A DNA stretch of 26,689 nucleotides from a virus. Location of the stretch: positions 1 through 26,689 of the IMG/VR virus record IMGVR_UViG_3300022074_000313. One strand, given 5' to 3'. Position numbers and translations under genes: made by a program. The notes beneath the pieces were generated by a model, which worked only from the letters and a program-made list of their open reading frames with translations, made no database searches and was not told where the DNA came from. Below, piece after piece: positions 7,434 to 26,180 of this stretch; position 1 is the first letter of the stretch; the number at the start of each line of letters is the position of its first letter.

Positions 7434-7494
7434 TTCTATTTTCCTTTAGTTGTTAGACACCAGTTTATTTCTTGTTGTACAAAAACAAAAGAAC

Positions 7495-7507
7495 ATCAAC
7501 GCACAAA
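7495..7507 (-). promoter_or_regulatory. Conserved motif site A (TTTGTGCGTTGAT, - strand)
   Basis: Reading on the - strand, TTTGTGCGTTGAT begins directly after the stop codon of the gp16-like gene. The same 13 nt occur in the portal-side gap (22067-22079), and the 11-nt core recurs at 18836-18846 and 26099-26109. A -10-like TACAAC lies 15 nt downstream. The site is about 60 nt upstream of the first fibre-module ATG. Candidate promoter or regulator site for the fibre and lysis genes. The + strand also reads GCACAA...TTGTGC around this point, which may be chance. Confidence 0.5.
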
Positions 7508-10500
7508 TTAATATCTGCCAAAACTTGTGCGATCTTCAAGCTCACCTTCAATCATATTCGTAAGCTCATTCATCTTACCTTTCCAGAACCACATTCTAGC
7601 AAATGGTAAATTCCGAATGACTTCTTTAGTTCCTTCGCCAACTTCACCAGTAGCAAGATCATAGAGACCACGCCCTATATCAACACCAATACTAGGGCCA
7701 GCGCCAAGAACACCAGTAGCTGCATCTAAAGCATCTGGCTTTTGTGGGAACCTTGGCTGAAGCACACCGCCAGTAATATTTGGGCCACCCAGCGCCAAGC
7801 TGGTAGACATAGCTGTGTAAAACATATCGGAGTAAAGAGCAGCAACACCTGAATAATCAAATGATCTTGCAAACTGATCTTCAAAATCCATCTCAACAAA
7901 GTCTGGTGTCTTGTATTGCAGAACCATATAGCCAAGACCCATAGAGAGAGCAGTACCAATCCACTGGTTCTTCAGTTGTCCATGTCCATATGCAGCAGTA
8001 ATCTTGTTTAGCGCCGCAAAGCTGTAACTGTAGAACTGGAAAGGTAAGCCAAGAAGACCGTTTTCAATACGAGCATATCCCTTGAACTCTTTGTCTTCTT
8101 TCATTCCAAACTTACGAGCAACACGCATAGGAATGTAAACAATACCATCAGTAATGATTGGCTTATCCGCAGGAGTACCCATCAAGATTGTATTCATAAT
8201 TCCAGAGCTAAGAGCATTGCGGAATGTGCGTACTGTTTCTGGGTCAACTCTTGCTTGCTTTTCTATTTCAGCAACAGCTAAGTCATTGATTGCATTTTCA
8301 TAAGCAACCTTATCTGCATTCTTTCTCATGTCAAAGCCCATAGCCTTGGGCCTGTTTAAAGAGTGCATAATTTCGTGCATCTTAATAAAGGTAACATAAT
8401 CCTCTGGACTATTGATTATGCCTTTCTTAATTGGTTTTACGCCTTCGGTTCTAGGATTTTCCCAACCTCGCTCAGGCCACATTTCTTCTATAATATGCTC
8501 TTCATCAATGTATATTTTGTTTTCTGATTCTCTGTAGAAAGCTGGCTTATACCTGTTTCCATCGAAGCTATTTGTTGGCCCAGAAATAATTTCTGCTTTG
8601 GTTACGGGAAACTCAATAGTATTTGTCCATGCCTCAGTATTTGCCATATAAAGGCCAGACTCACCCTTTTGCCACGGCGCACTAGCAATCTTCTTGGCAT
8701 CTTCCAGATCAATATTATATCTTAGAAGATATTCTTGCTCTTGCTTGGTTGCTTTCCCTTGTGTCCAGCGAACAGAGTAATCAATCAAAGTATGAGAGCG
8801 CATCATTGCATCAAAGTCTTTGAAGATGCGAGTAATAGGGCCAAGTCCGTTTAGTAAATAGAAAGGGCTTTTTGCTCTATCTAAAATATCAGACCTAAAT
8901 GGGTTATTGTTTACATCATCAACCAAACGCAAATGCGCAGAGTTCATAATGTTATCTAATGCCTCACCAGCTACCCTTGCTTCTTTGCCTCCAAGACGAA
9001 GTTGATTGTTTTTCATTATAGAAAACAAACCACGGAATGTAGGGCCAAGACCATGTTCCATCATAATCTTAGCTGGCTCAGTCATTGTAGAAACGCCAGC
9101 AGAACCAAGATAATTTAACTGTGCAAGACTGCGCAATACTCTAGCTGTACTTTGATCCCAGCTATCAGGGTCACGCTGCAAGCTACCAGTAACCCGTTTG
9201 TAAAGGTGACGCATATCTTTCATTGCAGCATGTGCTTGTGCTTGCGTTCTTCCAGCGTCCATCATTTGATTGAAAGTATCGTCTAAGATATCATCAATAG
9301 AATCACCGCCAAACATACGAGCAAACTCATATCTAGCGCCTGTTCTTTGAGTATACGCTTTCATAACCGCAACTGGATTAGTTTGAATGTAATCTAAAAC
9401 CAATTCATTTGGTATATCTACCAAACGATGCTTGAAGTGTTTTGACTTACCAGCGCCATAATATCCTACTTCTGGATCAAGAATGTCCTTGATGCCCATA
9501 ATAGAATTTACTGTATGATTAACACGCTTAGAAACAGCTTCTTCAGAAGTATCTAAAGTTACCCTAGAAGATTTACCGTCTTTGCCTCGAACAATAATAG
9601 ATGGATTCTTTGTGTACCATTCTGAAAGAATGCGTTTGAAGTCTTCCATGTTTGCTTTGATTGCATCCTGATCCCAATATCTAGGACGAAACAGCTTTTC
9701 ATTAGGAGGCAGCACAGGGCCAGCTTCTTTAATATCAGTTAGGATTGCTTTGGCCTCATCTACTTCATCAGAGTAGCGACGAACTTGAGCCTCTAGCCTT
9801 GCTCTATAATCTGCATTCCTAGTTGTTTCTAATTTTTTCTGAACGCTTTCAATGCGGCGCTCACGACCAACAATAAACTTCTTATAATAAGAGGCAGAGC
9901 CAATTAACCCTTGCTCACTAAGTCTTTCTTCCCAATTTTGATAAAACTTATTAAGGGTATCCATTGCTCTAGCTTCAAAGTCATTGGCTGGTTCAATGCC
10001 GCGCATAGACTTGCTATCAACACCTTCAAGCCAAGTCTCAAAGTCTTTACGCTGAAAAGTATAATCAAGGGGATTTGTAACACCTTTGCCAGTGCTTTGG
10101 CCCCAGATATTAAGCATATCATCGTAGGCTTTGACCCACTCGCCTTCGAGCAGTTTTGCGTTCTGATAAACTGAGTTCCCAATTTTTTTGCCTTGTTTGT
10201 TTGCCGCAAGTAAAATGCCTGAGTCATTTGCAATCTTTAAAGTATTTAGCTTTACAGAGTTAGGAATGTTATCATCAGTAAGAATCCGCTTCATTGGTGT
10301 AGTTACAGCCTTGTAAAGCCAAGAGTCAGTAAACAGGCTTGGGGCTATTCTACCATCTGGCTCTTCGCCTTCTGGTGAGATTGCAGTTCTTAGATTATCT
10401 ATCTCAATTTCTGCATCTCTTTGCGCAGCAAGTCTTCTCTGCATTGGAATAGTTACAAGGCCAGAGAGTGTGCCACCAATCAATGCTGCTGACCCAATGT

Positions 10501-11002
10501 TAATAGCGGCCTCTGCGGGCGTTGCTAGGGGGTCTAGAGGATACCTAATGGCTTCTTGGCCAGAAACTACTGCACCAGTAGCCACTGCGCCTCTAAAGAA
10601 CGTTCTACCAAATGTAGCGGCTGGAGCAAAAGGTATTGCAACCCAATTAATAGGATCAAAGACTTCTGAGGTTAATTCAGCAAAAACACCAGACTGAGCT
10701 AATGTTTGTCTAACCTCACGGCGTTTTTCTAAATTACCAATTAGGTAATCCATATGTTCTTGATTAGTAGCCCTAAGAAGATAAGAGCCAAATGGCTTTA
10801 AATTCTCTGGGATATTATCAATTGCACTATATCCGTCTTCTGGGATGTTTGGAAAACGCGATGTTTCTTCTATGTAGTCTAAGAAAGGGCTGTATTTGTA
10901 AGCTAGGGAAGCAGAAACCGTATCATAAAAACTTACATCAGAAGGTGGCGCAACACCTCTGCCACTCTCAAGACCTTTTGTTATACTTAAACCATTTTGC
11001 AT
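7508..11002 (-). CDS. gp16-like large internal virion/ejection protein with inserted HExxH metallopeptidase-like domain
   Basis: 1164 residues, in the position of T7 gp16: last and largest of the three internal virion proteins, just before the fibres. Residues 120-190 are hydrophobic and Ala/Gly-rich. Residues 370-425 are a charged coiled coil. 980-1040 and 1055-1125 contain further hydrophobic stretches, fitting a membrane-spanning ejection conduit. No lytic transglycosylase domain is seen at the N-terminus, where T7 gp16 has one. About residues 795-918 look like a separate inserted domain carrying H876-E-I-M-H880 and, 22 residues later, Y901-E902-N-A-I-N-D, a gluzincin-like arrangement. Flanking segments (SGLYMANTEAW and DPETVRTFRNAL) would join smoothly without it. 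Role inferred: DNA translocation into the host, with the protease domain perhaps aiding envelope crossing. SD AGGT overlaps the previous stop. Confidence 0.75.
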   Translation of the reverse strand: MQNGLSITKGLESGRGVAPPSDVSFYDTVSASLAYKYSPFLDYIEETSRFPNIPEDGYSAIDNIPENLKPFGSYLLRATNQEHMDYLIGNLEKRREVRQTLAQSGVFAELTSEVFDPINWVAIPFAPAATFGRTFFRGAVATGAVVSGQEAIRYPLDPLATPAEAAINIGSAALIGGTLSGLVTIPMQRRLAAQRDAEIEIDNLRTAISPEGEEPDGRIAPSLFTDSWLYKAVTTPMKRILTDDNIPNSVKLNTLKIANDSGILLAANKQGKKIGNSVYQNAKLLEGEWVKAYDDMLNIWGQSTGKGVTNPLDYTFQRKDFETWLEGVDSKSMRGIEPANDFEARAMDTLNKFYQNWEERLSEQGLIGSASYYKKFIVGRERRIESVQKKLETTRNADYRARLEAQVRRYSDEVDEAKAILTDIKEAGPVLPPNEKLFRPRYWDQDAIKANMEDFKRILSEWYTKNPSIIVRGKDGKSSRVTLDTSEEAVSKRVNHTVNSIMGIKDILDPEVGYYGAGKSKHFKHRLVDIPNELVLDYIQTNPVAVMKAYTQRTGARYEFARMFGGDSIDDILDDTFNQMMDAGRTQAQAHAAMKDMRHLYKRVTGSLQRDPDSWDQSTARVLRSLAQLNYLGSAGVSTMTEPAKIMMEHGLGPTFRGLFSIMKNNQLRLGGKEARVAGEALDNIMNSAHLRLVDDVNNNPFRSDILDRAKSPFYLLNGLGPITRIFKDFDAMMRSHTLIDYSVRWTQGKATKQEQEYLLRYNIDLEDAKKIASAPWQKGESGLYMANTEAWTNTIEFPVTKAEIISGPTNSFDGNRYKPAFYRESENKIYIDEEHIIEEMWPERGWENPRTEGVKPIKKGIINSPEDYVTFIKMHEIMHSLNRPKAMGFDMRKNADKVAYENAINDLAVAEIEKQARVDPETVRTFRNALSSGIMNTILMGTPADKPIITDGIVYIPMRVARKFGMKEDKEFKGYARIENGLLGLPFQFYSYSFAALNKITAAYGHGQLKNQWIGTALSMGLGYMVLQYKTPDFVEMDFEDQFARSFDYSGVAALYSDMFYTAMSTSLALGGPNITGGVLQPRFPQKPDALDAATGVLGAGPSIGVDIGRGLYDLATGEVGEGTKEVIRNLPFARMWFWKGKMNELTNMIEGELEDRTSFGRY

Positions 11003-11006
11003 TTTA

Positions 11007-13967
11007 TTACCTGTTAAAAGGAGAGGTAAATATAGTTGGAGGAAGCTGCCTAACTCTTTCCTGATCTTGCGGAGTAATTAGAAACTGTTGTCTATAGTTA
11101 AATTTACGCAGTAATTCAGCATCAACTTCAACTTTTTTCCTAGCATAATAATCTGCCATATCATCCTTAGAGAATGTTGGGTTCCAAAGGCCGCCACCCT
11201 CTTGAGGATTACCAACAGCATCCGCTTCATAGACAAGTGGACGAAGCTCTTTGTTTTCATCAACAAAATAAACAGAATACCGAACGTCATCACCATTAAC
11301 AATTGGAACTAGCTTAATTAAAGTTGCTTCAGTAGCTGTTATATCTGCTTGTAGAGAAAACGATGAATGTATTGTTTCACCAATCTTTATATTTTGAGGT
11401 AGGCTATTATGAATTATTTTTTGAAACTCAATCCTAGCTTTGTCATCGCCTTCAAAATATTTTCTAAGGGCGTGACGTGATCTTGTTATATCTCCAACAG
11501 GCACTCTTGGATCGGCAATGTAATCAGACTTAGCATACTTTTCATCCAGAACAGTTTCTACTTTTTCTTTTGCGTACTTAAGTGTGCGAAAGTTAAGAAG
11601 GTGATATTCAAGAAGGCTTTTAACCTCTGGAGCAACTAGCGGATCATTTCCCGCAATCTTATTTGCCTCAGAGCTTAGAGTTGTGTCTTTTAGCTCAATG
11701 TCACGATTAGACATTGCACTAGGGCTTCTTTGCCTATCTTTAAGTGTTACAGCAATCTCAGAAATAGGCGTATCTGAATCTCTGGAAATATTAATAACAT
11801 TATCTAAAAAAGCCCTATCCTTATCAGAAAGAGTATCTCCAAATACGCCACTTGGCAGCGCAGAATACAAAGATAAAAATGACTCAGGGTTCTTAATTTG
11901 CTGTCCACTTACAATAGATTCTAAACCATCAACAAGAGTTTGAGGTACAGCACTAGCAATTATCGGTAGAAGCAATCCTCTTTGCTCATTTGTCCACGTT
12001 GAATAGTTTTCAACAGGAGCATCATTTCTCAGAAGAAGCTCATCAGTTGCCTGTCTGTCATCCCTAATATTAGAATTTCCGTTTCCTGAAATAACTCTAT
12101 TAAAAATCTGAAGTTTCTCTAAGTCTTCCTGTGATTGTCTTTCTTGCTCACTAACTGCAACTCGAACAGAGTTTATCTTTGATAAAACATCCTTGCGATC
12201 AGCCTCTTTAGTTTCAGCTAAAATATTATTGCCAAGAGAAATTGTTGTATCAAGCATTCCCTCTTTGCGTTTTCCGCTAGAGTTTACATAGATATGAAGA
12301 TTGTTAAGCTGTTTTGAACTTGCTGTAGCAGAAAAACCATCAATGCGATCTGAGGCTCTTGCTTTGCGCATTGAGCCAATTAAGGTATCAACCTTTGTTG
12401 CTCCAAGTGTGCCAGCATTCTCTTGAATCTTAGCGGACATTTTTTCAAAGGCTTCATCAGATATACCACCATCAATTAATGAGAAAACTTCATCACGAAG
12501 AGAAATCTCTAATCTGATGTTGTCCCTTGCTATTTTTATAGAATCCTCAGATGCCTCTAGAACACTTCGTCCAAACGCCTTTATTTCCTGAGTATCTAAA
12601 ATTTCTGAAGAATGTACTGCATCAATAAACGCATTCTGTTTTTGGGTAAGCATACTGCGATCAACTAAAGGATTGCTAAGAGCAGCCTTTAATGACTCGA
12701 CATTACCTTCAGCAGCAGCTTCTAAAAGAAAAGGTTCTAGCGCGGCTTCTTTTGCTGTATTTAAATCAGAGCGGCGACTATCATCACTAATAAGACCATC
12801 TACAAACTGCTTGTTAAGAGTTTCTTCTGCTTTAGCTAATTCACCTACAGCAGCGCTAAACGCATTGTTAATATCAGAAAGGTTATCAGAGTCAAAAGAC
12901 TTAGCAGCCAACTCAGTAGATATAGAGCGAAAATTCTCAATGGTTTCGCCAAACTTGAGAACAGCTTTTCTAGATAAAAACTCTGCTGCATTTTTTGCTG
13001 CAAGCGCTGCATCTCTTTCAACAGCATTGTAATCAGCAGCAACGCTAGAGGCATGACTTAGAATGCTTGCTTTTTCAGATGGCTGAATAAACTTTAAGAG
13101 CGCTTTGCCATTCTCAACTTGCTCATTTGTCAGGCCACCAGTTAGCTGACCATTACTGCGAAAGAACAAAATAACTTGACGCCTTTCAGCGCTAGTAAAG
13201 GTTTCCCTCATCATGTAATTCATACCACCAAGAGCAATCTCTTTGTCGTACAAATTAGATGTGCTTGTATCAGCGCCAGACTTCAAAAGAGCAGAGGTAA
13301 CACCATCTTTTGCAGCGCCAACATTCTTTGTTTTCTCTAAAACAGCAAGGGAATCATCACCAACAAAGTTACCCTCTTCAGCAGCCGCCCTAGCACTACT
13401 AGCCCCCTCTTGAATAGAAACAGTAAGCTGAGACGCAGTGTTCTGCCTTGCTCTTGTAATTGCCTTGTCTTGAAGGTTTAGCTTAGTACGCGCTAAATAC
13501 TCAGAGCCAACATATTCAATGTGTGCTTCGTATCTACCCTCAGAGCTTTCAGACATTTGCCCTATGTAATCACTCATAGCCTCGGCGTAGGCTTCTGGGG
13601 AAAACTCATACTTTATGGCAAGCTCTTTTGCCTTTAGCTGCATTTCATTATTTATTGAATCTTCAAAGCGTTTATCAATAACACGCTGATAGGCTTCAGC
13701 AGCAATCTGACCAAATCCCTCTGGCGCTTTATAAGCCTCTGGCTTGCCAGTTATAGGATTAAATGTTGTGAGTTTATCTTCTTGAGCAGCAAGAGCGGTA
13801 TCAATGCCCTTCTTTTCAGCAGCCCTTGCTGCATCTCTATAAGCAAGCTCCGCCATTGTTCCAGCAGCGCGGCTGATAGATTGAGCAACCGAACCTGCCC
13901 CTGCATCTGCTCGAACAACCCCGACTGGCTGATTAAAGATTTGTGTTCTTTGTCTAATTACAGCCAT
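11007..13967 (-). CDS. gp15-like internal virion protein
   Basis: A 986-residue, almost wholly helical, charged protein (many Glu/Lys/Ala stretches) beginning MAVIRQRTQIFNQPVGVVRADAGA and ending in a Pro-containing tail (LPPTIFTSPFNR). It lies between the gp14-like and gp16-like genes, the same order as T7 14-15-16. In T7, gp15 forms part of the periplasmic DNA tunnel during ejection (family knowledge). No catalytic motif is seen. Long helices with heptad-like spacing (about 300-420 and 590-640) fit an oligomeric tube. Start overlaps the stop of the gp14-like gene (TAATG). The function is assigned by synteny and overall composition rather than by a strong motif. Confidence 0.7.
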   Translation of the reverse strand: MAVIRQRTQIFNQPVGVVRADAGAGSVAQSISRAAGTMAELAYRDAARAAEKKGIDTALAAQEDKLTTFNPITGKPEAYKAPEGFGQIAAEAYQRVIDKRFEDSINNEMQLKAKELAIKYEFSPEAYAEAMSDYIGQMSESSEGRYEAHIEYVGSEYLARTKLNLQDKAITRARQNTASQLTVSIQEGASSARAAAEEGNFVGDDSLAVLEKTKNVGAAKDGVTSALLKSGADTSTSNLYDKEIALGGMNYMMRETFTSAERRQVILFFRSNGQLTGGLTNEQVENGKALLKFIQPSEKASILSHASSVAADYNAVERDAALAAKNAAEFLSRKAVLKFGETIENFRSISTELAAKSFDSDNLSDINNAFSAAVGELAKAEETLNKQFVDGLISDDSRRSDLNTAKEAALEPFLLEAAAEGNVESLKAALSNPLVDRSMLTQKQNAFIDAVHSSEILDTQEIKAFGRSVLEASEDSIKIARDNIRLEISLRDEVFSLIDGGISDEAFEKMSAKIQENAGTLGATKVDTLIGSMRKARASDRIDGFSATASSKQLNNLHIYVNSSGKRKEGMLDTTISLGNNILAETKEADRKDVLSKINSVRVAVSEQERQSQEDLEKLQIFNRVISGNGNSNIRDDRQATDELLLRNDAPVENYSTWTNEQRGLLLPIIASAVPQTLVDGLESIVSGQQIKNPESFLSLYSALPSGVFGDTLSDKDRAFLDNVINISRDSDTPISEIAVTLKDRQRSPSAMSNRDIELKDTTLSSEANKIAGNDPLVAPEVKSLLEYHLLNFRTLKYAKEKVETVLDEKYAKSDYIADPRVPVGDITRSRHALRKYFEGDDKARIEFQKIIHNSLPQNIKIGETIHSSFSLQADITATEATLIKLVPIVNGDDVRYSVYFVDENKELRPLVYEADAVGNPQEGGGLWNPTFSKDDMADYYARKKVEVDAELLRKFNYRQQFLITPQDQERVRQLPPTIFTSPFNR

Positions 13968-17582: not shown

Positions 17583-17614
17583 GACAGTATGGGGGCCGAA
17601 GCCCCCACTCCTTT
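17583..17614 (-). promoter_or_regulatory. SD-hairpin-AUG translation initiation structure for the gp11 gene
   Basis: Read on the - strand: AAAGGAG, then TGGGGGC-TTCG-GCCCCCA, then TACTGTC and ATG. The hairpin (17590-17607) has a 7 bp stem, six of the pairs G:C, and a C(UUCG)G tetraloop, the most stable class. It removes 18 nt, leaving 7 nt between SD and AUG, the optimal spacing. No T-run follows, so a rho-independent terminator is unlikely. Intervening hairpins that bring SD and AUG together are known in T4 genes 25 and 38; transfer of that model here is inference. Confidence 0.75.
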
Positions 17615-17615
17615 A

Positions 17616-17879: not shown

Positions 17880-17891
17880 GTTTTACTCTCC

Positions 17892-18701
17892 TTAGTTATT
17901 GTCGAGGACTTCATAGACGCCATCATTGTCAATAACAACAGCCCCCATTGACATCATCGAGGTTGCGAGGTGTGACACTTTTTCTGCAACATAGTTAACC
18001 TCAGTTTGAACATCAGCATTGATGCCAAGGCCAACAGCGTTTGTGTGGTAAGCAAAGTTTTTGCCACCTGCAACCGCAGACGTTGAGAAAATTTTAAAGC
18101 CCAAGAACTCCTTCATGGTAATACCACCTGCAAACGGCAGGTTCTGATCGCCAACAAAGTCAGAAGATGCAAACTCTGTAATATTATACAGATCAGCAAA
18201 TCCCGCAGGAGACATTGCTAAGAAGCGCTGTCCGTCTTCTGGCATGTCAGCATTACCAACAGTCTCAAAAAGAGAAAGCAGATCAGCTTTTGCCAAAGCA
18301 GAGCCAGTGTCGTGGATTTGAGTTGAGTTAGCACCTGCATCAAGGGCAGTTGTTACAATCTCATCTGTCTTGCGACCAAGAGCAGCAGCAGCAGATTGTG
18401 CTACAGCTTGACGCTCATTGATGTTAATTTTCAACTCGTCTAGTTTATCAATGTACTCCGGTGCAAAAAAGTCATTCATAGTGACTTCGACGTTTGTATG
18501 CGCCAATTCCATTGGGGTTACGTTGCCGTTACGAGATTTCGTATTGGCTGTGCCTTTTCCAATTATTTGGAAACGAGCAGTTGAACCAGTCACATTAGTA
18601 GAGCGAACAGTGTTCCGTAGTTTAGAACCCATACGCTGATACGCCATGTGAACTTCGGTTTCAAACTGCTTAATAAAGGCTGTGGTAATTGTATTAGCCA
18701 T
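17892..18701 (-). CDS. Major capsid protein
   Basis: A 269-residue protein. The N-terminal arm (FIKQFETEVHMAYQRMGSKL) and following strand (NTVRSTNVTGSTARFQIIGKG) are characteristic of a widespread family of podophage capsids with the HK97 fold (Pfam 'phage capsid protein' group). The E-loop-like GNVTPMELAHTNVEVTMNDFFAPEYID, the spine helix (ERQAVAQSAAAALGRKTDEIV) and P-domain segments are in the expected order. It is shorter than T7 gp10A (345). It assembles on the scaffold encoded two genes upstream and forms the shell with the small downstream protein. It is preceded by a 79 bp gap, the largest within the head genes, and a regulatory motif copy lies about 135 nt upstream inside the preceding gene. 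Confidence 0.88.
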   Translation of the reverse strand: MANTITTAFIKQFETEVHMAYQRMGSKLRNTVRSTNVTGSTARFQIIGKGTANTKSRNGNVTPMELAHTNVEVTMNDFFAPEYIDKLDELKININERQAVAQSAAAALGRKTDEIVTTALDAGANSTQIHDTGSALAKADLLSLFETVGNADMPEDGQRFLAMSPAGFADLYNITEFASSDFVGDQNLPFAGGITMKEFLGFKIFSTSAVAGGKNFAYHTNAVGLGINADVQTEVNYVAEKVSHLATSMMSMGAVVIDNDGVYEVLDNN

Positions 18702-18780
18702 TTTTACAGTCCTAATTGAAGTTACGGTTTACAACGGGTGTCCACTCTCGCACTTCAATAAGGGTATCCTTTCGGGCCTT
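18702..18780 (-). other. Capsid gene leader region
   Basis: A non-coding 79 bp gap between the gp13-like stop and the capsid ATG. On the - strand it holds AAAGGATACCCTT, a 4 bp stem with a 4 nt loop, and a GTGGACACCC stretch. No T-run terminator and no strong SD next to the ATG are visible (nearest: TTAGGACTG, about 10 nt upstream). Its length in an otherwise gapless unit suggests a 5' leader or RNA-processing site for the most highly expressed gene. Confidence 0.35.
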
Positions 18781-19266
18781 TCAGTGCATTATGGGCCGTA
18801 ATGAGCTATCGTAAACATTCTTTTCGTTTGGATTGCAACGCACAAATTCAACATACTTGTTTTCTTTTACCGTCGAAATACCAACAGGTTCAAAACCAAG
18901 CCAAGCTGCCCAGTGCAATATTCCCTCATAATCTGCTAGAATAGTCATAGTCATGTTGGGTTGAGTCTTGTCAAAAAAGTTAACTAACATTTTTGATCCA
19001 CGCGCTAGCATAGTAAAGTTTTCTTTTATTTTATTTGAGAACATGCAGAACATTTGAGGAAAATCTTGATCTTCAGTAAAGAACAAGCCCCCAACAGCTA
19101 TAAAACTTTCGCCCTCTCGTCTTACAAGATAGCACTCAGATGTTTCGTACATTTCAATAATAGCTTGCTTAATGTCAGTGTGACCTAAGATCGCAAGCTC
19201 TCTTTTATTTTCCTTACTTAAGTTGGCAACAACTTCATCAACATGGCGTAAGGTAAAGGGGGTCAT
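18781..19266 (-). CDS. GNAT-like internal virion protein (T7 gp13-like)
   Basis: 161 residues starting at the ATG of 19266 (MTPFTLRHVDEVVANLSKEN). I prefer this to the longer frame (to 19380) because AAGGGGGC precedes it at a suitable distance, it follows the scaffold stop by 25 nt instead of overlapping by 89 nt, and GNAT-type proteins open this way. The fold is suggested by the N-terminal strand-helix, SFIAVGGLFF, and the C-terminal ILHWAAWLGFEPVG, the usual 'YxxxGF' element. The acetyl-CoA loop (Q/R-x-x-G-x-G/A) is not convincing (LARGSKML), so it may be enzymatically inactive. T7 gp13 belongs to a similar family but lies after gp12; here the gene sits between scaffold and capsid. A regulatory motif copy lies within its 3' end. 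Confidence 0.65.
   Translation of the reverse strand: MTPFTLRHVDEVVANLSKENKRELAILGHTDIKQAIIEMYETSECYLVRREGESFIAVGGLFFTEDQDFPQMFCMFSNKIKENFTMLARGSKMLVNFFDKTQPNMTMTILADYEGILHWAAWLGFEPVGISTVKENKYVEFVRCNPNEKNVYDSSLRPIMH
18836..18846 (-). promoter_or_regulatory. Conserved motif site D (TTTGTGCGTTG, - strand), upstream of capsid
   Basis: The 11-nt core lies inside the 3' end of the gp13-like gene (codons for F-V-R-C-N-P), oriented toward the capsid gene and about 135 nt from its ATG. A -10-like TACGAT occurs 24 nt downstream of the 13-nt frame used for sites A and B. Being in coding sequence, this copy could be partly constrained by the protein, so it is weaker evidence than the other three. Confidence 0.4.
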
Positions 19267-19291
19267 GTAATAATGCCCCCTTCTTAGAATT

Positions 19292-20026
19292 TTAACTTCT
19301 GTTTGGGTAAAGGGCTTGGAATCCTTCGGTAACTTGCTTAATGTAGTGAGGGTCGCGGTCTTTATGGTATCTTGGGTCACGCATCATCTCCTCTAATTCT
19401 TCTTGACCTTGACCTGCGCTTGGTTGCGTTTCGCCTGCAAACGAACCGTCTTTCATAGCTTCCATTATTGCTTCAAGAGCAACAATGCCCTCATGACTTT
19501 CGCACATTCTTTCTATTGCTGGAAGGGCAGTTTCAGGAAAAAACTTATTTGCAAAGAGCGATGCGGCCTCAATACGTTGTTCAGCATTGTCTCCTAGCTT
19601 TTGTGCCTCTGCTTGAATGTCTGGCTGACTATCTCCAATAGCTTCAGCATACATTTCGATGCCTTTTTCAAACTCGTCTTGAGAATATCCATTCTCGAAA
19701 GAGTGATCTGCCCACCAAGACAACAACTTGTTATCTACAGCAGATTCTTGATCAATGCTTTCTGGTAGTTGATAATCACCAGCAGTTTCTGGCCTATCAC
19801 TAAATGCCTCAGATTGTATCTCTTCTATTAGTTTACTGCGTATATCTTCTTCCTTAGTGCCGAGTTTTGACTCAAGCTCTTTATACGCTTTAGCTAAATC
19901 CTCACCAGTATTATACTTTTCTGGCAACCACTCTGGTTTTTGAGGTAATTCTCCTTGCTGAACATCTGCTTCAGTTACAAAGTCACGACCATCAGCTTCT
20001 GCTACTTGTGCTGCTTCTTCACTCAT
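19292..20026 (-). CDS. Capsid assembly scaffolding protein (T7 gp9-like)
   Basis: A 244-residue, very acidic, mostly helical protein: Glu-rich N-terminus (MSEEAAQVAEADGRDFVTEADV), the recurrent PEWLPEKYNTGEDLAKAYKELE segment found in podophage scaffolds, a Gln/Glu-rich middle, and a C-terminal helix (MMRDPRYHKDRDPHYIKQVTEGFQALY) that would contact the capsid. It is absent from mature virions in the family model. Position between portal and capsid agrees. Start overlaps the preceding stop (ATGA). Confidence 0.85.
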   Translation of the reverse strand: MSEEAAQVAEADGRDFVTEADVQQGELPQKPEWLPEKYNTGEDLAKAYKELESKLGTKEEDIRSKLIEEIQSEAFSDRPETAGDYQLPESIDQESAVDNKLLSWWADHSFENGYSQDEFEKGIEMYAEAIGDSQPDIQAEAQKLGDNAEQRIEAASLFANKFFPETALPAIERMCESHEGIVALEAIMEAMKDGSFAGETQPSAGQGQEELEEMMRDPRYHKDRDPHYIKQVTEGFQALYPNRS

Positions 20027-20283
20027 TTGTTTTTACTCCTGTGTGCATGAGCAATCCTTTGCTCAATCAATCCAACAAAATAGCGCTGTCCCTCAAGGTG
20101 ACGAAGTTCTTCCGTAGAAATATTAGGGCCGTTTACCAACTCAATGGTAACGGATCGAAAGTATCTCAAAACCTCTTGACCTGTTGCGCTAGAAAATACC
20201 TGTGCAATATTCTGACTTATCTGAACATCTTTCCCAGAACTACGCTGAATACCGTCTATTCCAATATTAACCTTGTTGCTCAA
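20023..20283 (-). CDS. Bbp19-like small protein between portal and scaffold
   Basis: An 86-residue protein whose only plausible start is TTG (20283), inside the end of the portal gene (17 nt overlap), with AAGG about 9 nt before it. The C-terminal half (EVLRYFRSV...ISTEELRHLEGQRYFVGLIEQRI) follows the pattern of the phage Bbp19 domain: an F/Y-x-x-V segment, then H-x-L-E-G-Q/R-R and an L-I-x-x-I helix. Members of the family lie near portal/terminase genes; function is unknown. The rare start and the overlap suggest low-level coupled synthesis. Confidence 0.6.
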   Translation of the reverse strand: MSNKVNIGIDGIQRSSGKDVQISQNIAQVFSSATGQEVLRYFRSVTIELVNGPNISTEELRHLEGQRYFVGLIEQRIAHAHRSKNK

Positions 20284-21796
20284 TAGCCATACCTTGCTGT
20301 TGTTGTGCCAATTGTTGCGCTAACGCAGCTATCTGTTTACGCTGTTCTTCATCACGAATCAAGCTCTCAGGCACACCAAATTTTTTAGCAAGGTAAATCG
20401 CAGTCTGTTCACCATCAATTAGTAGCTGCAACATCTCTGGGCCAAAGCCACTGCCAACCATTTCAATAAATCTAGCAACACTTGAAATATCTTGATTTGC
20501 TTGGGCTTGCGCTAATGGAGACACAGAGCGAACTTTAACCTCTCTTCCATTAACGGTGGGCACTTCTATACGGCCTTGTTTCTTTAAGATGTAAATAACA
20601 CGCTGCAACACAGGCTGAACTAACTCAGCTTGCAGTCTTCCAAACGCAGCACCCATTCTTCTTGAGAGGTCAGCCATTCTTTCTGCAATCTCAGTTGCGG
20701 TTGCTGGTGTTCGATCAGGATTGCCTAGCATATCATTGTAAAGAGCGCGTTTAATATTCAATCGCATATCGCTCAATACAAGTTGTGCAACGTCAAAACG
20801 ACCCGCTGCTTGAATTGGCTGAAGACCTGCTGACCCCATAGCTTTCGGTATGATTGTCCCAGGAACTAAATTTATCGTGTCAGGGTTGATTACGCCATCA
20901 TCTTCCATTTGATAAATGCCAGAAATAGACATCTGAGCATTTTCTAGAATTAATTCAATTGTAAGGTTAGTTGTTTTAATTGAAGATAAGGCATTAACAA
21001 GTGGGCCACGACCATATACTTCGCCAGCGCACTTCGACCACCTAAAACAAACAAAAGGATTAGAGCCAACGCCACTTAATTTTTTATAGTGTAGGATTGT
21101 TTCTGTAGACATACAAATTGCATAGTGCAAATAGGCTTCTTCATTCTTTGCAGAGTAGTCACGACAAACAAGTTCTAAAACAGTTGTCTCTCTGTTCGAT
21201 CCCATTTGTGACACAACTTTGTTATCAAATGTTCCATTTGGAAACATGAGAGGCAAGTGGTCAAACTTAACCTTTTTACGCTCACGAAATACGTGATCTA
21301 TTCTATCGTCGGGACCAGTATCAAGTACGACATGGGGGAGTGGTATCGCAGAAAAGTTTACTGGGCTTAGGGAGTCACCTTCCTCAACACAGAGAATACC
21401 AGTCCCGACAGCCAAATCCATGAAGGATTCATGGACTTCTTGGCTAAAGTTAGAGTTCTGAAGCACCTCAAATACATACTCGGTAACTTCATCTAATTCA
21501 TTATCAATAGCTTCTCTTTGCTCTGGCGGTATTTCACTGCCAGAAATTAGGTCAGCCCAGCGCGCATAGTTAGGTACTATCCCTGATTGAAGCCGACTTG
21601 CAAACTCTTGAACACCAACGACAGCAGTTTCATCAAAGATTTTTTCATCCCTGCGCTGTCCATGTTCTTCATAATAAAAAGATTCACGCTGTGGCAAAGC
21701 GTACTCATAGCACTCTTCAAACAGAGGAACCCACTGTTCCCGAAAGGCTTTTGCCTTCTGGTACTTTTCAATATAACGCTTTGCTACTTTATCCAT
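20267..21796 (-). CDS. Portal (T7 gp8-like head-tail connector)
   Basis: 509 residues, close to T7 gp8 (536). The opening (RYIEKYQKAKAFREQWVPLFEECYEYALPQ), the FDETAVVGVQEFASRLQSGIVP segment and ISGSEIPPEQR, followed by a long helical C-terminal half with NPDRTPATATEIAERMADLSRRMGAAFGRL, match the podophage head-tail connector family. Twelve copies form the portal ring through which DNA is packaged and to which gp11 binds. The end is Gln-rich (QQLAQQQQGMAIEQQG). TAATG overlap with the gp7.3-like gene. Confidence 0.92.
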   Translation of the reverse strand: MDKVAKRYIEKYQKAKAFREQWVPLFEECYEYALPQRESFYYEEHGQRRDEKIFDETAVVGVQEFASRLQSGIVPNYARWADLISGSEIPPEQREAIDNELDEVTEYVFEVLQNSNFSQEVHESFMDLAVGTGILCVEEGDSLSPVNFSAIPLPHVVLDTGPDDRIDHVFRERKKVKFDHLPLMFPNGTFDNKVVSQMGSNRETTVLELVCRDYSAKNEEAYLHYAICMSTETILHYKKLSGVGSNPFVCFRWSKCAGEVYGRGPLVNALSSIKTTNLTIELILENAQMSISGIYQMEDDGVINPDTINLVPGTIIPKAMGSAGLQPIQAAGRFDVAQLVLSDMRLNIKRALYNDMLGNPDRTPATATEIAERMADLSRRMGAAFGRLQAELVQPVLQRVIYILKKQGRIEVPTVNGREVKVRSVSPLAQAQANQDISSVARFIEMVGSGFGPEMLQLLIDGEQTAIYLAKKFGVPESLIRDEEQRKQIAALAQQLAQQQQGMAIEQQG

Positions 21797-22023: not shown

Positions 22024-22066
22024 AACAATCTCCTTTTCCTCTTCCTATTCATAAAGAATAGAAAAA

Positions 22067-22079
22067 ATCAACGCACAAA
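22067..22079 (-). promoter_or_regulatory. Conserved motif site B (TTTGTGCGTTGAT, - strand), upstream of portal genes
   Basis: Identical to site A over 13 nt, and like it located directly behind a stop codon (2 nt after the TerL stop) in a short gap. A T-rich spacer leads to TATGAAT 13 nt downstream, a reasonable -10-like element, then AATAGG and the SD of the next gene. Candidate promoter or regulator site for the portal-scaffold-capsid genes. Confidence 0.5.
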
Positions 22080-22081
22080 CG

Positions 22082-23602
22082 TCACATTCTCGTCCAAATG
22101 CTTTGCCGTTTTTTCTTAGGTGACTTAGTAAAAACATCAAAACTCCTTTGCGCAACAATGGGTTTCATTGGTTTTTGAGTAGCCATTAAAGCTCTGCCCT
22201 CACCAGCGCCTAAAAATAAATACTGAGCCGCATCATGGATGTGACTAAACATATTCTTATCAGGCTTGTCAGCATAACGCTCACCAGATACTTCCATACG
22301 TTTATAGGAGTAACCGCCCTCGAAGCCTTTGATTAGCTGAACGCAACGCCTATCAATTAAAAGTGCGGGTTTACCCTCAACCATCTTGGTAAGCTGAGAG
22401 GAAACGGCTTCCAAGCGGAGGTCAACAGAGTTGGAGGGCGCAGGGAACGCCCTCAAACCCGCACCGCGCAGAATGTGAAATGGAGTAGATTCATCAGTCT
22501 GCGCTCTAAAGTCGCCAGCGGGATCACCATAGATTATTACTTCCGATGCAGCCGCAAACCTTGTGGCTAATTCATTCCTAAGAACTTCGGCAAAACGCAC
22601 GATGCCCATGTCTATTGCCACAATTTCTGACTGCAAAAACCATCTGCCCCTTACTTTCTGTCCAAGAACTGCGGCAGGCGTCAAGCCAAAGTCTACGCCA
22701 ACATACACTGGCATACTCGCTGCAATAGGTATTTCCTCTTTGGCAATGTGAACTTCTGGTGCAAACATGGGGTACACAGGCTTTCCATCTTGAATATGAC
22801 CCAAACGGTTCATAACATAAACATCTATCCACGATTTTGTCTTACCTCTAATAAGATTAGAATAATAGGTCTTCAGCATATTCTTGCAGTTTTCAGCCTT
22901 CTTGTTTGGCTGATATTCTTCTATTTCTCCTTCGGAGTTTTTCTTTTCGACCATACCAGAAGGTTGGGTAAAGAAACGCCAATTGTCTGGCGTGACCAAC
23001 ATCTTAGCTTGCTCACGAGGAATATGATCTGGGATTGGAACCTCACCAGCCATAATAGGCCACCAATGATCTTCTTCAGGCGCGTTGGTATCGGCAATAA
23101 CGCCAGTCCAAGTAGGACCGCCATCACGCATAGAAGGAAAACGCCCAACACGCATCGTACAGGCATCAATAATAGACTTAGGAATTTCTCTCGCTTCGTT
23201 AATCCAGATACCAGTAAGTTCGAGCGAAAGAAGTTTCTTAACGTCTTCGGGACGATCAAGAGCCAAGAAAAGAACCTCAAGGTCTATATCCCCCTTTTTA
23301 ATATGATGGGTGTATGGCACCGACCAATAAAACTTACCCCAATCATTCTCAGGAAACCAGTCAAGCCAAGTCTTTATAGTAGTAGTTCTAAGCTGCGGAT
23401 TGGTATTCCGTATGATAGCCCAACGGCTTTTGCGAATACCGTCTGGACCTTTGTTCTGCATCAAAGCACGACGAAACACTTCAACGCAACAAGCTACAGA
23501 CTTGCCAGAACCAACAGGACCACGAATGCCACGAAAGAATAAGTCGTCTTTCATAAATTGTTTTAGTACATCGCCATCAGGTTTGTACTTGAAGTTTATC
23601 AT
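22082..23602 (-). CDS. terL: Terminase large subunit
   Basis: 506 residues. ATPase half: Walker A G28-P-V-G-S-G-K34-S35; Walker B-type strand I132-W-I-N-E136, with Asn where Asp is usual; coupling motif A170-D-T-N173. Nuclease half, RNase H-like: D304 in VGVDFG, D360 in IIYGDPAGD, D457 in HIHDAAQYL, the three metal-binding acidic residues. It cuts concatemers and pumps DNA through the portal with TerS. Length is typical of podophage enzymes of this sort. The start overlaps the previous stop (ATGA) with SD AAAGGA. Its separation from TerS by about 2.5 kb of small genes is unusual. Confidence 0.95.
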   Translation of the reverse strand: MINFKYKPDGDVLKQFMKDDLFFRGIRGPVGSGKSVACCVEVFRRALMQNKGPDGIRKSRWAIIRNTNPQLRTTTIKTWLDWFPENDWGKFYWSVPYTHHIKKGDIDLEVLFLALDRPEDVKKLLSLELTGIWINEAREIPKSIIDACTMRVGRFPSMRDGGPTWTGVIADTNAPEEDHWWPIMAGEVPIPDHIPREQAKMLVTPDNWRFFTQPSGMVEKKNSEGEIEEYQPNKKAENCKNMLKTYYSNLIRGKTKSWIDVYVMNRLGHIQDGKPVYPMFAPEVHIAKEEIPIAASMPVYVGVDFGLTPAAVLGQKVRGRWFLQSEIVAIDMGIVRFAEVLRNELATRFAAASEVIIYGDPAGDFRAQTDESTPFHILRGAGLRAFPAPSNSVDLRLEAVSSQLTKMVEGKPALLIDRRCVQLIKGFEGGYSYKRMEVSGERYADKPDKNMFSHIHDAAQYLFLGAGEGRALMATQKPMKPIVAQRSFDVFTKSPKKKRQSIWTRM

Positions 23603-23799
23603 CTAAGTCCTTTGTCTACTCCAAAGCGGATCATGCCTTCAACCACCTCTGGAGCAATACTATCAATTAGCTTATCACACTCATGGTCTGTAACAAAATG
23701 GTGTCCAAACTTTGCAATGACGCTTGATAGGTGAACCTTGCGAACAATGCCGCGAAGCATGTCACGATCTTGTTGAGTAATTGTAGAAGTAAAGCTCAT
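23599..23799 (-). CDS. Small hypothetical protein preceding TerL
   Basis: A 66-residue helical protein (MSFTSTITQQDRDMLRGIVRKVHLSS...FVTDHECDKLIDSIAPEVVEGMIRFGVDKGL). Similar short proteins with a D-x-x-x-L-R-x-I-V-R-x-V-H start and an S-I/L-x-P-E-V-V-E end occur next to terminase genes of marine phages; no role is known to me. ATGA overlaps on both sides couple it to TerL and to the preceding gene, which supports that it is real. Confidence 0.6.
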   Translation of the reverse strand: MSFTSTITQQDRDMLRGIVRKVHLSSVIAKFGHHFVTDHECDKLIDSIAPEVVEGMIRFGVDKGLR

Positions 23800-24026
23800 T
23801 TCTTAGCTTTCTTTTTAGTAGGTTTTTTTTTGGATTCATCAACATTAGGCGTAGAAGGATCATCCGATTTATAGGTCCCTTTCTTTGTCCTAGCCTTTAC
23901 TGGCTCTGGGCCTTCCTCCAACTTAACAGAATAACTCATGTGATTTGTTTCAGTCCAAGTAAAACCATGAAGAGTGTGAGTAGGGCCAGTCCATAACTCG
24001 CCAGTGTTTCTAATATACCAAGCCAT
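23796..24026 (-). CDS. Small hypothetical protein with lysine-rich tail
   Basis: A 76-residue protein. N-terminal 32 residues are aromatic-rich (MAWYIRNTGELWTGPTHTLHGFTW), suggesting a small folded beta unit. The remainder is disordered and charged, ending in KKKPTKKKAKK. The basic end could bind nucleic acid, for example packaged DNA; that is inference from composition only. Start lies 2 nt after the upstream stop; the preceding GGGG is a weak SD. Confidence 0.55.
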   Translation of the reverse strand: MAWYIRNTGELWTGPTHTLHGFTWTETNHMSYSVKLEEGPEPVKARTKKGTYKSDDPSTPNVDESKKKPTKKKAKK

Positions 24027-24028
24027 TA

Positions 24029-24193
24029 TTACCCCAAGTCTTTTTTTAGAAGGTCTTGAAGAGGTTGCCCAATAGAGGGCTTGGTTTCTTTGTGCATAGC
24101 CTCAATCATTTTAACTTGTTCATGATAATCATCCAATTTCATTATCGCTTTAGCCATTTTCTTAAAGCGCCACACTTGAGTTGATTCATTCAT
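24029..24193 (-). CDS. Small helical protein, 54 residues
   Basis: A short ORF with SD AAGGAAG 8 nt before ATG, starting MNESTQVWRFKKMAKAIMK and ending QPLQDLLKKDLG. It is predicted to be mostly helical and charged. It fills the space between its neighbours exactly: ATGA overlap with the upstream gene and 2 nt gap before the next ATG. This is the main reason to call it a gene. No family recognised. Confidence 0.6.
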   Translation of the reverse strand: MNESTQVWRFKKMAKAIMKLDDYHEQVKMIEAMHKETKPSIGQPLQDLLKKDLG

Positions 24194-24426
24194 GTTCTAT
24201 ACTTCCTTACTTTTCGAGCAATTGCTTTCGGTTGAGCCACAAACTGCTTGCCCTTAGCCTTGCCCTTTCGTTTAGCTCTGGTTGTAGCTGCATATTCAGA
24301 ATCACTAAGAGCAGCGATAGCTTTAGAAGGAAGGTAGCGCTCACCAGTCTCACTAGACTTTTTGCCAGACTTGGTGCGCCACTTCTGCTTTCCCCAATTG
24401 AGCAAAGATTTCTGAGAAGGCTTCAC
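24190..24426 (-). CDS. Small basic marine-phage protein (KWRTKSGK...ATTRAKRKGKA)
   Basis: A 78-residue, very basic protein starting with GTG (24426; GTGA overlap with the upstream stop, SD GGAGG 6 nt before). Conserved-looking blocks: SLLNWGKQKWRTKSGK, ETGERYLPSKAIAALSDSEYAATTRAKRKGK and GKQFVAQPKAIARKVRKYR. Proteins with this block order recur widely in marine phage and virus genomes, but the function is unknown. The charge and the lack of hydrophobic core suggest DNA or RNA binding or packaging in the head with DNA. Confidence 0.65.
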   Translation of the reverse strand: MKPSQKSLLNWGKQKWRTKSGKKSSETGERYLPSKAIAALSDSEYAATTRAKRKGKAKGKQFVAQPKAIARKVRKYRT

Positions 24427-24590
24427 TTATATCCTCCACCAGCAGCCTTATACCGCTTTGCTAAAAGTTGCGCCTTCCTTGCTGACCACTTGCCAGCCGC
24501 AGTACCTTGAACATTTGCAGCCTTTATTCTGTTGAATAAGCTCTTCCGCATCTTGGGTTTAGTGTAATTCCCAGCTTCATTTACCGCCAT
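24423..24590 (-). CDS. Small basic protein with WSARKAQ...AGGGYK motif
   Basis: 55 residues, beginning MAVNEAGNYTKPKMRKSLF and ending with KWSARKAQLLAKRYKAAGGGYK. The pattern Y-T-K-P-x-L/M-R...G-x-W-S-A-R-K-A-Q-x-L-A...Y...A/G-G-G-G-Y is one I recognise from many aquatic virus proteins of unknown function (DUF5872-like). The ATG at 24590 has AGGGAG about 14 nt upstream. A 17-codon frame that starts at the previous stop (24630-24577) runs across this start and could deliver ribosomes to it. Confidence 0.65.
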   Translation of the reverse strand: MAVNEAGNYTKPKMRKSLFNRIKAANVQGTAAGKWSARKAQLLAKRYKAAGGGYK

Positions 24591-24629
24591 TGCCTAGAAG
24601 CTCCCTAATATCTATCAGTCTCTTTTGCA

Positions 24630-24995
24630 TTAGAGCTTTTTCCTAAAATCAGACTGCAAAAGACTTTTTCCAGTGCGGCGAGTAAGATCAATCATAGCCC
24701 CGCCACCACCTTTACCTCGCAGAGATAATCCCTTTAGCTTTTCTTTTTTTGACTCTGTTGGTTTTTTTCTATCTTTTTCTTTGTTTCTTAATTTTTCTAT
24801 CTGAGCTTCTAATTTTTTTATTCCTATGCGCATTTTATCAATTTTTTTACTTCTTGCTCTAGCTTCTTTTGAGGGACCAGAATCGTCCCTTGCTGCCATG
24901 TCTGCTTGCATTTCATCAAAGTTTTGCTCTGCAAGGTCAAACAGCGCATCGGACAAATCATCTCTACGCTTTAGTAGTGTCTTTAAACTTGCCAT
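24630..24995 (-). CDS. Coiled-coil basic protein with GGGG/SLL tail
   Basis: 121 residues. A long charged helix (about 1-85; ALFDLAEQNFDEMQADMAARDD, then KKIDKMRIGIKKLEAQIEKLRNKEKDRKK) with coiled-coil heptads, followed by a tail GKGGGGAMIDLTRRTGKSLLQ. The architecture is repeated by the protein at 25585-25962, so the two look like diverged paralogues. Function unknown; possible virion-internal or scaffold-like protein. SD AGGA overlaps the previous stop; stop/start overlap TAATG at its end. Confidence 0.6.
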   Translation of the reverse strand: MASLKTLLKRRDDLSDALFDLAEQNFDEMQADMAARDDSGPSKEARARSKKIDKMRIGIKKLEAQIEKLRNKEKDRKKPTESKKEKLKGLSLRGKGGGGAMIDLTRRTGKSLLQSDFRKKL

Positions 24996-25005
24996 TACTT
25001 ATATC

Positions 25006-25125
25006 CTACTTAGCTTTCATAATCTTTCTCTTCAAAGCAGCCGGAAGTGTCTTCTGCTTCTTAGTCAGCATACTCTTCTTAGGGCGACCAACCTTACTTC
25101 CATAAGTACCTTTACCTGCTGGCAT
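25006..25125 (-). CDS. Tiny basic protein (MPAGKGTYGSKVGRPKK)
   Basis: 39 residues, 13 of them Lys/Arg. The N-terminus GKGTYGSKVGRPKK contains an AT-hook-like GRPKK core, and the C-terminus reads LPAALKRKIMKAK. Small proteins starting M-P-x-G-K-G-T-Y-G are very frequent in marine phages. The GRP core suggests minor-groove DNA binding, by analogy with AT-hooks. SD GAGGAG 7 nt before the ATG; TAATG overlap with the preceding stop. Confidence 0.65.
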   Translation of the reverse strand: MPAGKGTYGSKVGRPKKSMLTKKQKTLPAALKRKIMKAK

Positions 25126-25316
25126 TACATACTCCTCGTTGTTGTTGTTAAAGCACTCAGCAACGAAGCACGCTGTTTGCGCTTTGGCTTCGGAACATCC
25201 TTAAATACCTGCTCACCGCGCTCAATACGCTTAGAGGTCAAAGAAGGAAGAGGATCAAACTTAGGCTTCGCCTCTTCATACATCTTCTCAACACTATTAC
25301 CGCTACCAAAACACAT
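25125..25316 (-). CDS. Small protein sharing MCFG start and SLL tail with the gp7.3-like protein
   Basis: 63 residues: MCFGSGNSVEKMYEEAKPKF, a central charged part, and a basic tail KPKRKQRASLLSALTTTTRSM. The first four residues equal those of the gp7.3-like protein at 21796-22023 (MCFGPS), and both end in a basic stretch with Ser-Leu-Leu/Phe. It may be a second copy-like virion component. Function unknown. SD AAGAAGAG; TAATG junctions on both sides. Confidence 0.55.
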   Translation of the reverse strand: MCFGSGNSVEKMYEEAKPKFDPLPSLTSKRIERGEQVFKDVPKPKRKQRASLLSALTTTTRSM

Positions 25317-25588
25317 TAGCTCTTCTTTCTATGTCGCTTCGCAAAGTTACGAGCCGCCGCTACAGAGCCAAAGCCCCACTTCTTTAATGCCAATGCCTTC
25401 CGAGTCGGGCGACCCTTCTCATCTTTCATCGGCCCTTTCATTCCTGCAAACCGAGCAGCAAAAGAAACACGACGAGGATTTGTACCGCTGCTTAACTGAC
25501 GCTTTAAGTTAGCACCCTCAGTACGCTTAAAATGAGCGCGACCCGCAGCAGTCAAGCCGCCAGTCTTGCTTTTGTGTTCTTTCCTCAC
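25316..25588 (-). CDS. DUF6321-like small basic protein
   Basis: 90 residues starting with GTG (25588; GTGA overlap, SD AGAGG). The block KTGGLTAAGRAHFKRTEGANLK, then NPRRVSFAARFAGMKGPM and KGRPTRKALALKKWGF, is the pattern of a widely distributed virus protein family of unknown function (DUF6321, as I recall it: T-G-G-L-T-A-A-G-R, S-F-x-A-R-M/F-x-G-M-K, A-L-x-K-W). The extra C-terminal FAKRHRKKS is strongly basic. DNA association is possible. Family name given from memory; the motif is seen directly. Confidence 0.65.
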   Translation of the reverse strand: MRKEHKSKTGGLTAAGRAHFKRTEGANLKRQLSSGTNPRRVSFAARFAGMKGPMKDEKGRPTRKALALKKWGFGSVAAARNFAKRHRKKS

Positions 25589-25962
25589 ATCTGCCTCTTC
25601 TTAGCCATAGATAATAGAGACTGATCTTTTAGAGGCTTGCTAGGAGAGTACATACCACCACCACCACCCCCCTTTAAAGACTTAAGAAGGCTTTGCTTTT
25701 GACGAGTTACCTTTTTAAGCCTTTGCTTTTCTTTTTTAAGTTTTAATTTTTCAGTATTAGACGGATCGCCCTTTAACTTATGTTCGTCAATTGCATCAAT
25801 CATTTCTTCAAAATCAGAAAACGAAGAATCAAAACCAAAGGCATCACCTATTTTGCGCGATGCACTTCGATTAAAAAAACTATTACTCATAGAATTAATT
25901 CTACGAACAATTGTTCTCATTCTGCTGTCTAGCTTTTTTATTTTCTTCTTCGGATCAGCCAT
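25585..25962 (-). CDS. Basic helical protein with G6/SLL tail, paralogue-like
   Basis: 125 residues. Basic N-terminal helix (MADPKKKIKKLDSRMRTIVRRI), an acidic mid section (FSDFEEMIDAIDEHK), a Lys-rich coiled coil (TEKLKLKKEKQRLKKVTRQKQSLLK) and a tail with six glycines followed by MYSPSKPLKDQSLLSMAKKRQ. Same plan as 24630-24995. No family recognised. SD GAGAGG lies within the end of the upstream gene, which overlaps it by 8 nt. Confidence 0.6.
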   Translation of the reverse strand: MADPKKKIKKLDSRMRTIVRRINSMSNSFFNRSASRKIGDAFGFDSSFSDFEEMIDAIDEHKLKGDPSNTEKLKLKKEKQRLKKVTRQKQSLLKSLKGGGGGGMYSPSKPLKDQSLLSMAKKRQM

Positions 25963-26065
25963 CTCTAGAACCTCTCAAATGCCCAACACTCTTCAATGCA
26001 ACCTTTACCTTGGACATATCATCCCTCGGTGGCGTCTTCTCAGCCTGTTTTGCAAATCTAGCCAT
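25955..26065 (-). CDS. Tiny hypothetical protein, 36 residues
   Basis: MARFAKQAEKTPPRDDMSK start, ending HLRGSRDG. SD AGGTG lies 5 nt before ATG, and it overlaps the next gene by 8 nt. It is the first gene after the 115 bp gap below TerS, with motif site C just upstream. No family recognised. Called because of the SD, spacing and coupling. Confidence 0.5.
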   Translation of the reverse strand: MARFAKQAEKTPPRDDMSKVKVALKSVGHLRGSRDG

Positions 26066-26180
26066 AAAACACCTATACAATAAAAAAAATAATCTTGGCA
26101 ATGCACAAACCTTTTTGGCTAAAAATGTGAGTAAGGGACTATTACAGTAACAGACTGTGTAGTTTTTTGCCCCCCTACCC
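26066..26180 (-). other. Non-coding gap after TerS, with G-rich run, weak hairpin and motif C
   Basis: On the - strand, the TerS stop is followed by GGGGTAGGGGGG, a weak 5 bp hairpin (ACAGT-CTGTT-ACTGT, 26144-26158), then motif C and an 8-nt T-run. No convincing terminator (no T-run follows the hairpin). The longest gap of the structural unit; possible sites are a promoter and a terminase-recognition (packaging) site. Confidence 0.4.
26099..26109 (-). promoter_or_regulatory. Conserved motif site C (TTTGTGCATTG, - strand)
   Basis: Matches sites A, B and D in 10 of 11 positions (A for G at position 8). It lies 33 nt upstream of the first gene of the small-protein island. A T-rich spacer and TATTGTATAGG follow, so -10-like elements are present. 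Candidate promoter or regulator site for the packaging region. Confidence 0.45.

Follow-up and report, generated by a model that had tools for sequence, protein, structure and literature searches.

We analysed a viral contig of 26,689 bases (IMG/VR record IMGVR_UViG_3300022074_000313, taken whole and called the window here), which carries the late gene unit of a phage and stops before most of its early arm. The 11-nucleotide (nt) sequence TTTGTGCRTTG occurs four times along this unit. The 11-mer is very probably a conserved regulatory DNA element; which factor reads it, and whether the effect is to activate or to repress, is far less certain. Sequence comparisons suggest that the copies are probably activator-dependent late promoters of the host RNA polymerase. 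The candidate activator is c41, a small protein encoded in the early arm of related genomes.

Position and conservation of the 11-mer

Exact matching on both strands of the window found copies at 7497–7507 (site A), 18836–18846 (site B), 22069–22079 (site C), and 26099–26109 (site D), all on the - (late) strand and none on the + strand. These are the same four that the initial annotation had listed by eye with an expected chance count far below one. In 100 dinucleotide-preserving shuffles the mean count was 0.12 and the maximum was 1; four was never reached, which rules out chance repeats as the origin of the copies.

Site A (TTTGTGCGTTG) directly follows the TAA of a long internal virion protein gene (7508–11002). 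Site C lies 2 nt past the stop of the large terminase gene (22082–23602), upstream of the portal (head-tail adaptor) gene (20267–21796), and site D (TTTGTGCATTG) lies in the gap after the small terminase gene (26181–26552). Site B lies inside the reading frame 18781–19380 (PHROG 308, an internal virion protein), about 55 nt ahead of its stop codon; the gap behind this gene is 79 bp, and the major capsid gene (17892–18701) is downstream. All of these genes are on the - strand and were assigned by protein-family search, the large terminase also by comparison with isolates. The 11-mer had been described as marking the four largest gaps of the unit. Sites A, C, and D are indeed intergenic, but site B is not. 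The ranking of the gaps is roughly true, but stretches of 129 bp (24996–25124) and 240 bp (20027–20266) also seem empty; the first does so only because its small open reading frame (ORF) is shorter than 50 amino acids, and the second contains a conserved TTG-start ORF (cluster 7 of the gene-content comparison). The copies at 7497 and 22069 do share 13 nt, as had been noted, but only the former directly follows a stop codon.

Position and strand are kept in related phages, for which a scan had been proposed as a check. Among viral contigs retrieved by their terminase, the best 80 contain 120 sense and 0 antisense copies, and a reversed-pattern control gave 0 and 1. Near-complete relatives repeat the layout of the window, with copies after the small terminase, after the large terminase, before the capsid, and after the long internal virion gene. 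Six (G001, G004, G005, G006, G010, and G015) have four copies each in whole-record counts, with matching spacing. Most other relatives have one to five copies on a single strand; rare exceptions are G062 and G069, each with one opposite-strand copy. When loci were selected by the internal virion protein (down to 49% identity), site A was present in 40 of 44, with 40 sense and 0 antisense copies. A few relatives have an extra site (class E, with classes A–D corresponding to the window sites) upstream of D, which reads TTTGTGCGTTGACA...TGCTATGA. Three relatives have copies within the portal gene, which may be due to chance. In L005 (428, 479) and L010 (444, 477) site D is doubled, with an inverted repeat between the copies (AACGCTAAAGCGTT in L010 and a related one in L005). 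A pattern scan of all viral contigs for TTGTGCRTTG followed by AAAGGAGA was uninformative, producing 38 matches that were mostly scattered single sites in unrelated contexts.

The phages that carry the 11-mer form a family of bacterial viruses that are uncultured and mostly marine. The metagenome bins of the relatives carry labels of very different phyla. The late unit is podovirus-like by protein families (small and large terminase, head-tail adaptor, capsid, tail, internal virion proteins, and endolysin). By terminase, the closest isolate is Pelagibacter phage Hodr (65% identity), and there was no close isolate of the family among the phage records searched. The 11-mer is absent from the isolates Hodr and Methylophilales phage MEP301, and a literature search found no phage paper with it. 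The fibre/lysis block of the window also encodes a 557-amino-acid protein (2830–4503) with many SNGSFTLTGQ-type repeats.

Promoter-like anatomy and constraint on site B

When the last TTG of the 11-mer is taken as the start of a -35 hexamer, a spacer of 17–19 nt leads to an extended -10-like box. Of 82 non-redundant non-coding sites, 33 have the tetramer TGNT at +17 to +19 from the 11-mer, compared to 6.4 ± 2.4 expected and a maximum of 17 in 2000 shuffles. By class, it is present at 25/38 C, 4/5 E, 3/15 D, and 1/24 A sites, and at 20/25 sites of the coding class B. The element is clear in classes B, C, and E, is replaced by a TAGGG-type box in class D, and is absent in class A. Class E sites read TTTGTGCGTTGACA, where the TTG continues into a consensus -35 hexamer. 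Class II activators bind just upstream of -35, and the spacing suggests that TTTGTGCR would occupy this place.

The second boxes of the window, all on the - strand, follow the same pattern. Site B is followed after 18 nt by TGTTTACGA (18809–18817), and TGNT is at offset 18 in the 20 class-B sites that have it. Site C is followed after 15–17 nt by TATGAATAGG (22044–22053), with TGNT at offset 17 in 25 of 38 class-C sites and the variant TGAA in the window copy. The box after site D, TGTATAGG (26072–26079), is of the class-D TAGGG type. Downstream of site A there is a weak -10-like stretch, TGTACAAC (7474–7481), in a class without a clear second box, where relatives often have a hairpin.

Selection acts on site B as DNA, judging from its codons and its persistence. 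Its letters form the codons TTT GTG CGT TG of the peptide FVRC (within EFVRCN), and the valine is GTG in 44 of 49 non-redundant sequences, compared to 40 of 224 (18%) other valines in motif-bearing sequences. Four of the five exceptions (L106/G009, L066, L206/G025, and L052/G016) are phages that also lack the motif, or have a varied one, at other sites; the fifth, L196, is also without the motif after the terminase. L210 and L216 have no pre-capsid gene, yet keep the motif as non-coding DNA. Codon use and this persistence rule out a coding coincidence.

The same positional evidence could be read at the level of RNA, with the 11-mer acting in antitermination, processing, or leader control. The 11-mer always being on the sense strand and upstream of a start codon would fit, as would the class-A leaders, which often form a hairpin before the ribosome-binding site (mean z of -1.65; 38% below -2). 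There is no common fold, however. Mean z is near 0 in classes B, D, and E and -0.64 in C, so that only class A is clearly above shuffles in structure. In addition, the window has no Rfam match and the gene that co-varies with the motif encodes a DNA-binding-type protein, which leaves an RNA-level role improbable. In many relatives, L097, L086, and L118 among them, the class-A 11-mer and the fibre-block gene's ribosome-binding site enclose a strong hairpin, which is absent in other site classes. Separately, the capsid leader (18702–18830, - strand) is conserved, with GGCCCGNAAGGATACCC and GGACACCC. Its short helix has compensatory changes across 60 relatives, with A-T, T-A, and G-C at one pair, and phages that lack the 11-mer show this too. 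It is likely a structured mRNA leader, although it has no Rfam match.

The initial annotation had proposed that the late unit is divided by a regulator site or by a phage-specific promoter, the latter used by the phage's own RNA polymerase or by a host sigma factor with an unusual -35. The conserved position and strand back the promoter or regulator, but a phage polymerase is disfavoured. A short invariant box in several copies on one strand and a T7-like late gene order are what such an enzyme might produce, but the early ORFs of G001 and G002, each near 35 kb, are at most about 365 amino acids and too small for a T7-type enzyme. A search with PF00940 gave no match, but neither did its positive control. 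We consider a phage polymerase very improbable. Host RNA polymerase fits best, given the -35-adjacent box and a candidate phage-encoded helix-turn-helix (HTH) regulator, which could not be seen from the window because the c41 gene lies outside it.

A candidate reader and the motif-poor relatives

An all-against-all gene-content comparison of 19 genomes singled out c41, an approximately 82-amino-acid, putative Cro/C1-type HTH protein encoded in the early arm on the strand opposite the late genes. In G001 its gene is at 7743–7991 (-) of L083. Of the motif-bearing genomes, 13 extend over this part of the early arm and every one of them has c41, whereas the motif-less G009 and G025 do not; no other early-strand cluster is distributed in this way. 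In G009 and G025 the deletion is clean: the neighbours c26, c27, c40, and c42 are kept in place, with c27 starting at the end of c40, and whole-record profile searches of both found no c41 elsewhere. To avoid choice by motif, contigs were also collected by the neighbour c26. This yielded 65 loci with an adjoining c41, ten with the same clean deletion, and five cut too short to tell. The motif is missing from all ten deletion records, most of which are not long enough to include the late sites. Of the c41-bearing records that were examined, one is motif-less: G060, a short contig whose terminase-side end comes about 2 kb after c41. In records of at least 24 kb, a phage-encoded, putatively DNA-binding factor is co-distributed with the box: all 33 with c41 have one to five copies of the 11-mer and both with c26 but without c41 have none (33/33 versus 0/2). 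The link suggested by these gene-content and motif counts is strong but short of proof. The surroundings of the c41 gene itself yielded no 11-mer.

Two other candidates were dropped as readers. Motif-less phages have c40 as well. Two small HTH_23-type proteins at the early-arm end of the window (25–297 and 294–599, + strand), convergent with the late unit, have relatives in only part of the motif-bearing genomes.

c41 is predicted to belong to the Cro/C1-type HTH (XRE) group by its match to Pfam HTH_3 (PF01381, 27.7 bits versus a cut-off of 23) and by the XRE helical fold of its model, which has four helices and a mean predicted local distance difference test (pLDDT) score of 81. The closest solved folds by Foldseek are HipB and three restriction-modification controller proteins, C.AhdI, C.BclI, and C.Esp1396I. 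Sequence profile matches are XRE-type proteins (best 2ef8, named C.EcoT38IS), and PHROG matches are transcription regulators, including repressors and one CII-like regulator family. The stretch IGCTxSLIHKWE, which includes the recognition helix, is among the best-conserved parts of the protein.

We propose that each 11-mer would be the upstream element of a late promoter, in which TTTGTGCR would abut a -35-like TTG, with most classes having an extended -10-like box (TGnT...) 17–19 nt downstream. c41, made from the early arm, would bind the 11-mer and help the host RNA polymerase to initiate there. The appearance of c41 would then turn on the late arm from four predicted start points, at the late leader genes, the portal block, the capsid block, and the fibre/lysis block.

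Relatives that have lost the motif bear on this proposal. The 11-mer is entirely missing from G009, G025, and G012. Their gap after the large terminase has collapsed to TAGGAG...ATG, with the stop codon overlapping the next ribosome-binding site, and G012 is additionally without the gap after the internal virion gene. The FVRC codons shift to GTT in motif-less relatives and the peptide is FIHC in G012. Joint loss of sites is what the loss of a trans-acting reader predicts. In the terminase tree, absence of site C requires several separate changes; two rows tagged as lacking site C (L054 and L033) do have the motif, which the label missed because their terminase ends differently. In G016, sites A and B have the variant TTTGTACRTTG and site C reads TTTTCCATTG; a scan for relatives of this genome returned only G016 itself. 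After the small terminase, G009, G025, and G012 keep a -10-like remnant (CTGTTAAGGG, GTGTTAAGGG) although the box is gone.

These patterns also bear on two alternatives in which the sites are still promoters. In the first, the 11-mer is read by the host, through an unusual sigma factor or a host regulator, and c41 is unrelated. The promoter-like anatomy stands without c41, and the loss of c41 may be one event. Against this, c41 is the only early-strand cluster found in 13/13 motif-bearing and 0/2 motif-less genomes, the motif-less relatives lost their sites jointly as expected for a trans factor, and divergent c41 goes with other words at comparable places (ACTAGTCCATTGTGAC in L201; TTTTGTGCGTA in L199 and L203) and a divergent recognition helix. 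A host reader is therefore unlikely. In the second, the 11-mer is an operator through which c41 represses late promoters until late infection. Cro/C1-type HTH proteins are often repressors, as are some of the PHROG matches of c41, and the 11-mer overlaps the -35 region. Loss of a repressor should leave the promoters in place, yet G009, G025, and G012 lose the whole post-terminase gap, and the location of the c41 gene, on the other arm from the late genes, is what would be expected if an early-made activator were involved. We regard repression as somewhat less likely still than a host reader.

The outgroup words come from phages with remote c41-like proteins, in which the recognition-helix stretch differs (LGVSDGMVAKWE, LGYADRLVSKWE). 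ACTAGTCCATTGTGAC is repeated in L201 (1402, 4868), after the terminase and before the capsid, and also occurs at L198:4019. Both are phages in Novosphingobium metagenome bins and are possibly a sister system with its own c41-like protein. TTTTGTGCGTA is repeated in L199 and L203, also after the terminase and before the capsid, but the first copy is about 340 bases past the aligned terminase end and its context is less certain. The pairing of word and protein is by bin only, with the gene on another contig of the metagenome bin than these loci. A remote c41-like ORF occurs in Hodr; its inspected gaps showed no recognisable repeated word.

Several observations weigh against c41-dependent late promoters. 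Class A has only a weak second box, and that of class D is of another type. The c41 deletions, including the two motif-less records, probably belong to one clade, a single evolutionary event seen several times. No contig reaches the early arm of a second motif-poor clade (L051, L055, L064, and G012), for which two dedicated scans found none; within this clade, L064 retains the motif at D only. The window itself ends before c41 would be reached, and the Foldseek E-values are modest (best 1.5e-3).

Comparison with known systems and significance

The proposed arrangement has parallels in model phages. T4 middle promoters combine a MotA box with a sigma-70 -10 element, and are similar in having many copies of a short phage-specific box at or replacing -35, used by the host RNA polymerase with a small phage activator. 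MotA has another fold, whereas here the candidate is a Cro/C1-type HTH protein, the box is 11 nt, and the targets are late structural blocks. Lambda CI at PRM and CII at PRE are phage HTH proteins that activate at or beside -35, and one PHROG match of c41 is CII-like, but they control lysogeny genes from one to three promoters, while here four sites lie along the late unit and the 11-mer has no evident palindrome. Mu C/Mor and P2 Ogr are also early phage proteins that turn on several late promoters of the host RNA polymerase type; to our knowledge, their protein families and sites are unrelated to c41 and the 11-mer.

Late-gene timing in podoviruses without their own RNA polymerase is known mostly from a few model phages. 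The controller proteins of restriction-modification systems, C.AhdI and C.Esp1396I, are among the closest solved folds of c41. These small XRE-type proteins time expression by recruiting RNA polymerase sigma, as reported for C.Esp1396I at its promoter (PMC4041747). They regulate their own operon via C-boxes, whereas c41 is phage-borne and its gene has no 11-mer nearby. The neighbours of c41 are c26, c27, c40, and c42, and inspection of the listed early ORFs by eye revealed no gene for restriction or a methylase. Phage-encoded XRE proteins also activate transcription of prophage small-protein modules (PMC10432266). Those switch induction via one small neighbouring gene, while the targets proposed here are structural gene blocks.

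There is perhaps an even chance that a large, mostly marine podovirus family relies on a small XRE-type protein as its dedicated activator of late genes, with a four-site regulon, and that box and recognition helix diverged together in the outgroups (ACTAGTCCATTGTGAC, TTTTGTGCGTA), so that specificity may be readable from sequence. Comparative genomics alone supplies this widespread family with a concrete candidate pair of a box and a small protein, and late-gene timing in these viruses becomes directly testable. The 11-mer could serve as a promoter marker for annotating metagenomic viruses, and the variants of box and recognition helix provide a natural series for the study of how HTH specificity changes.

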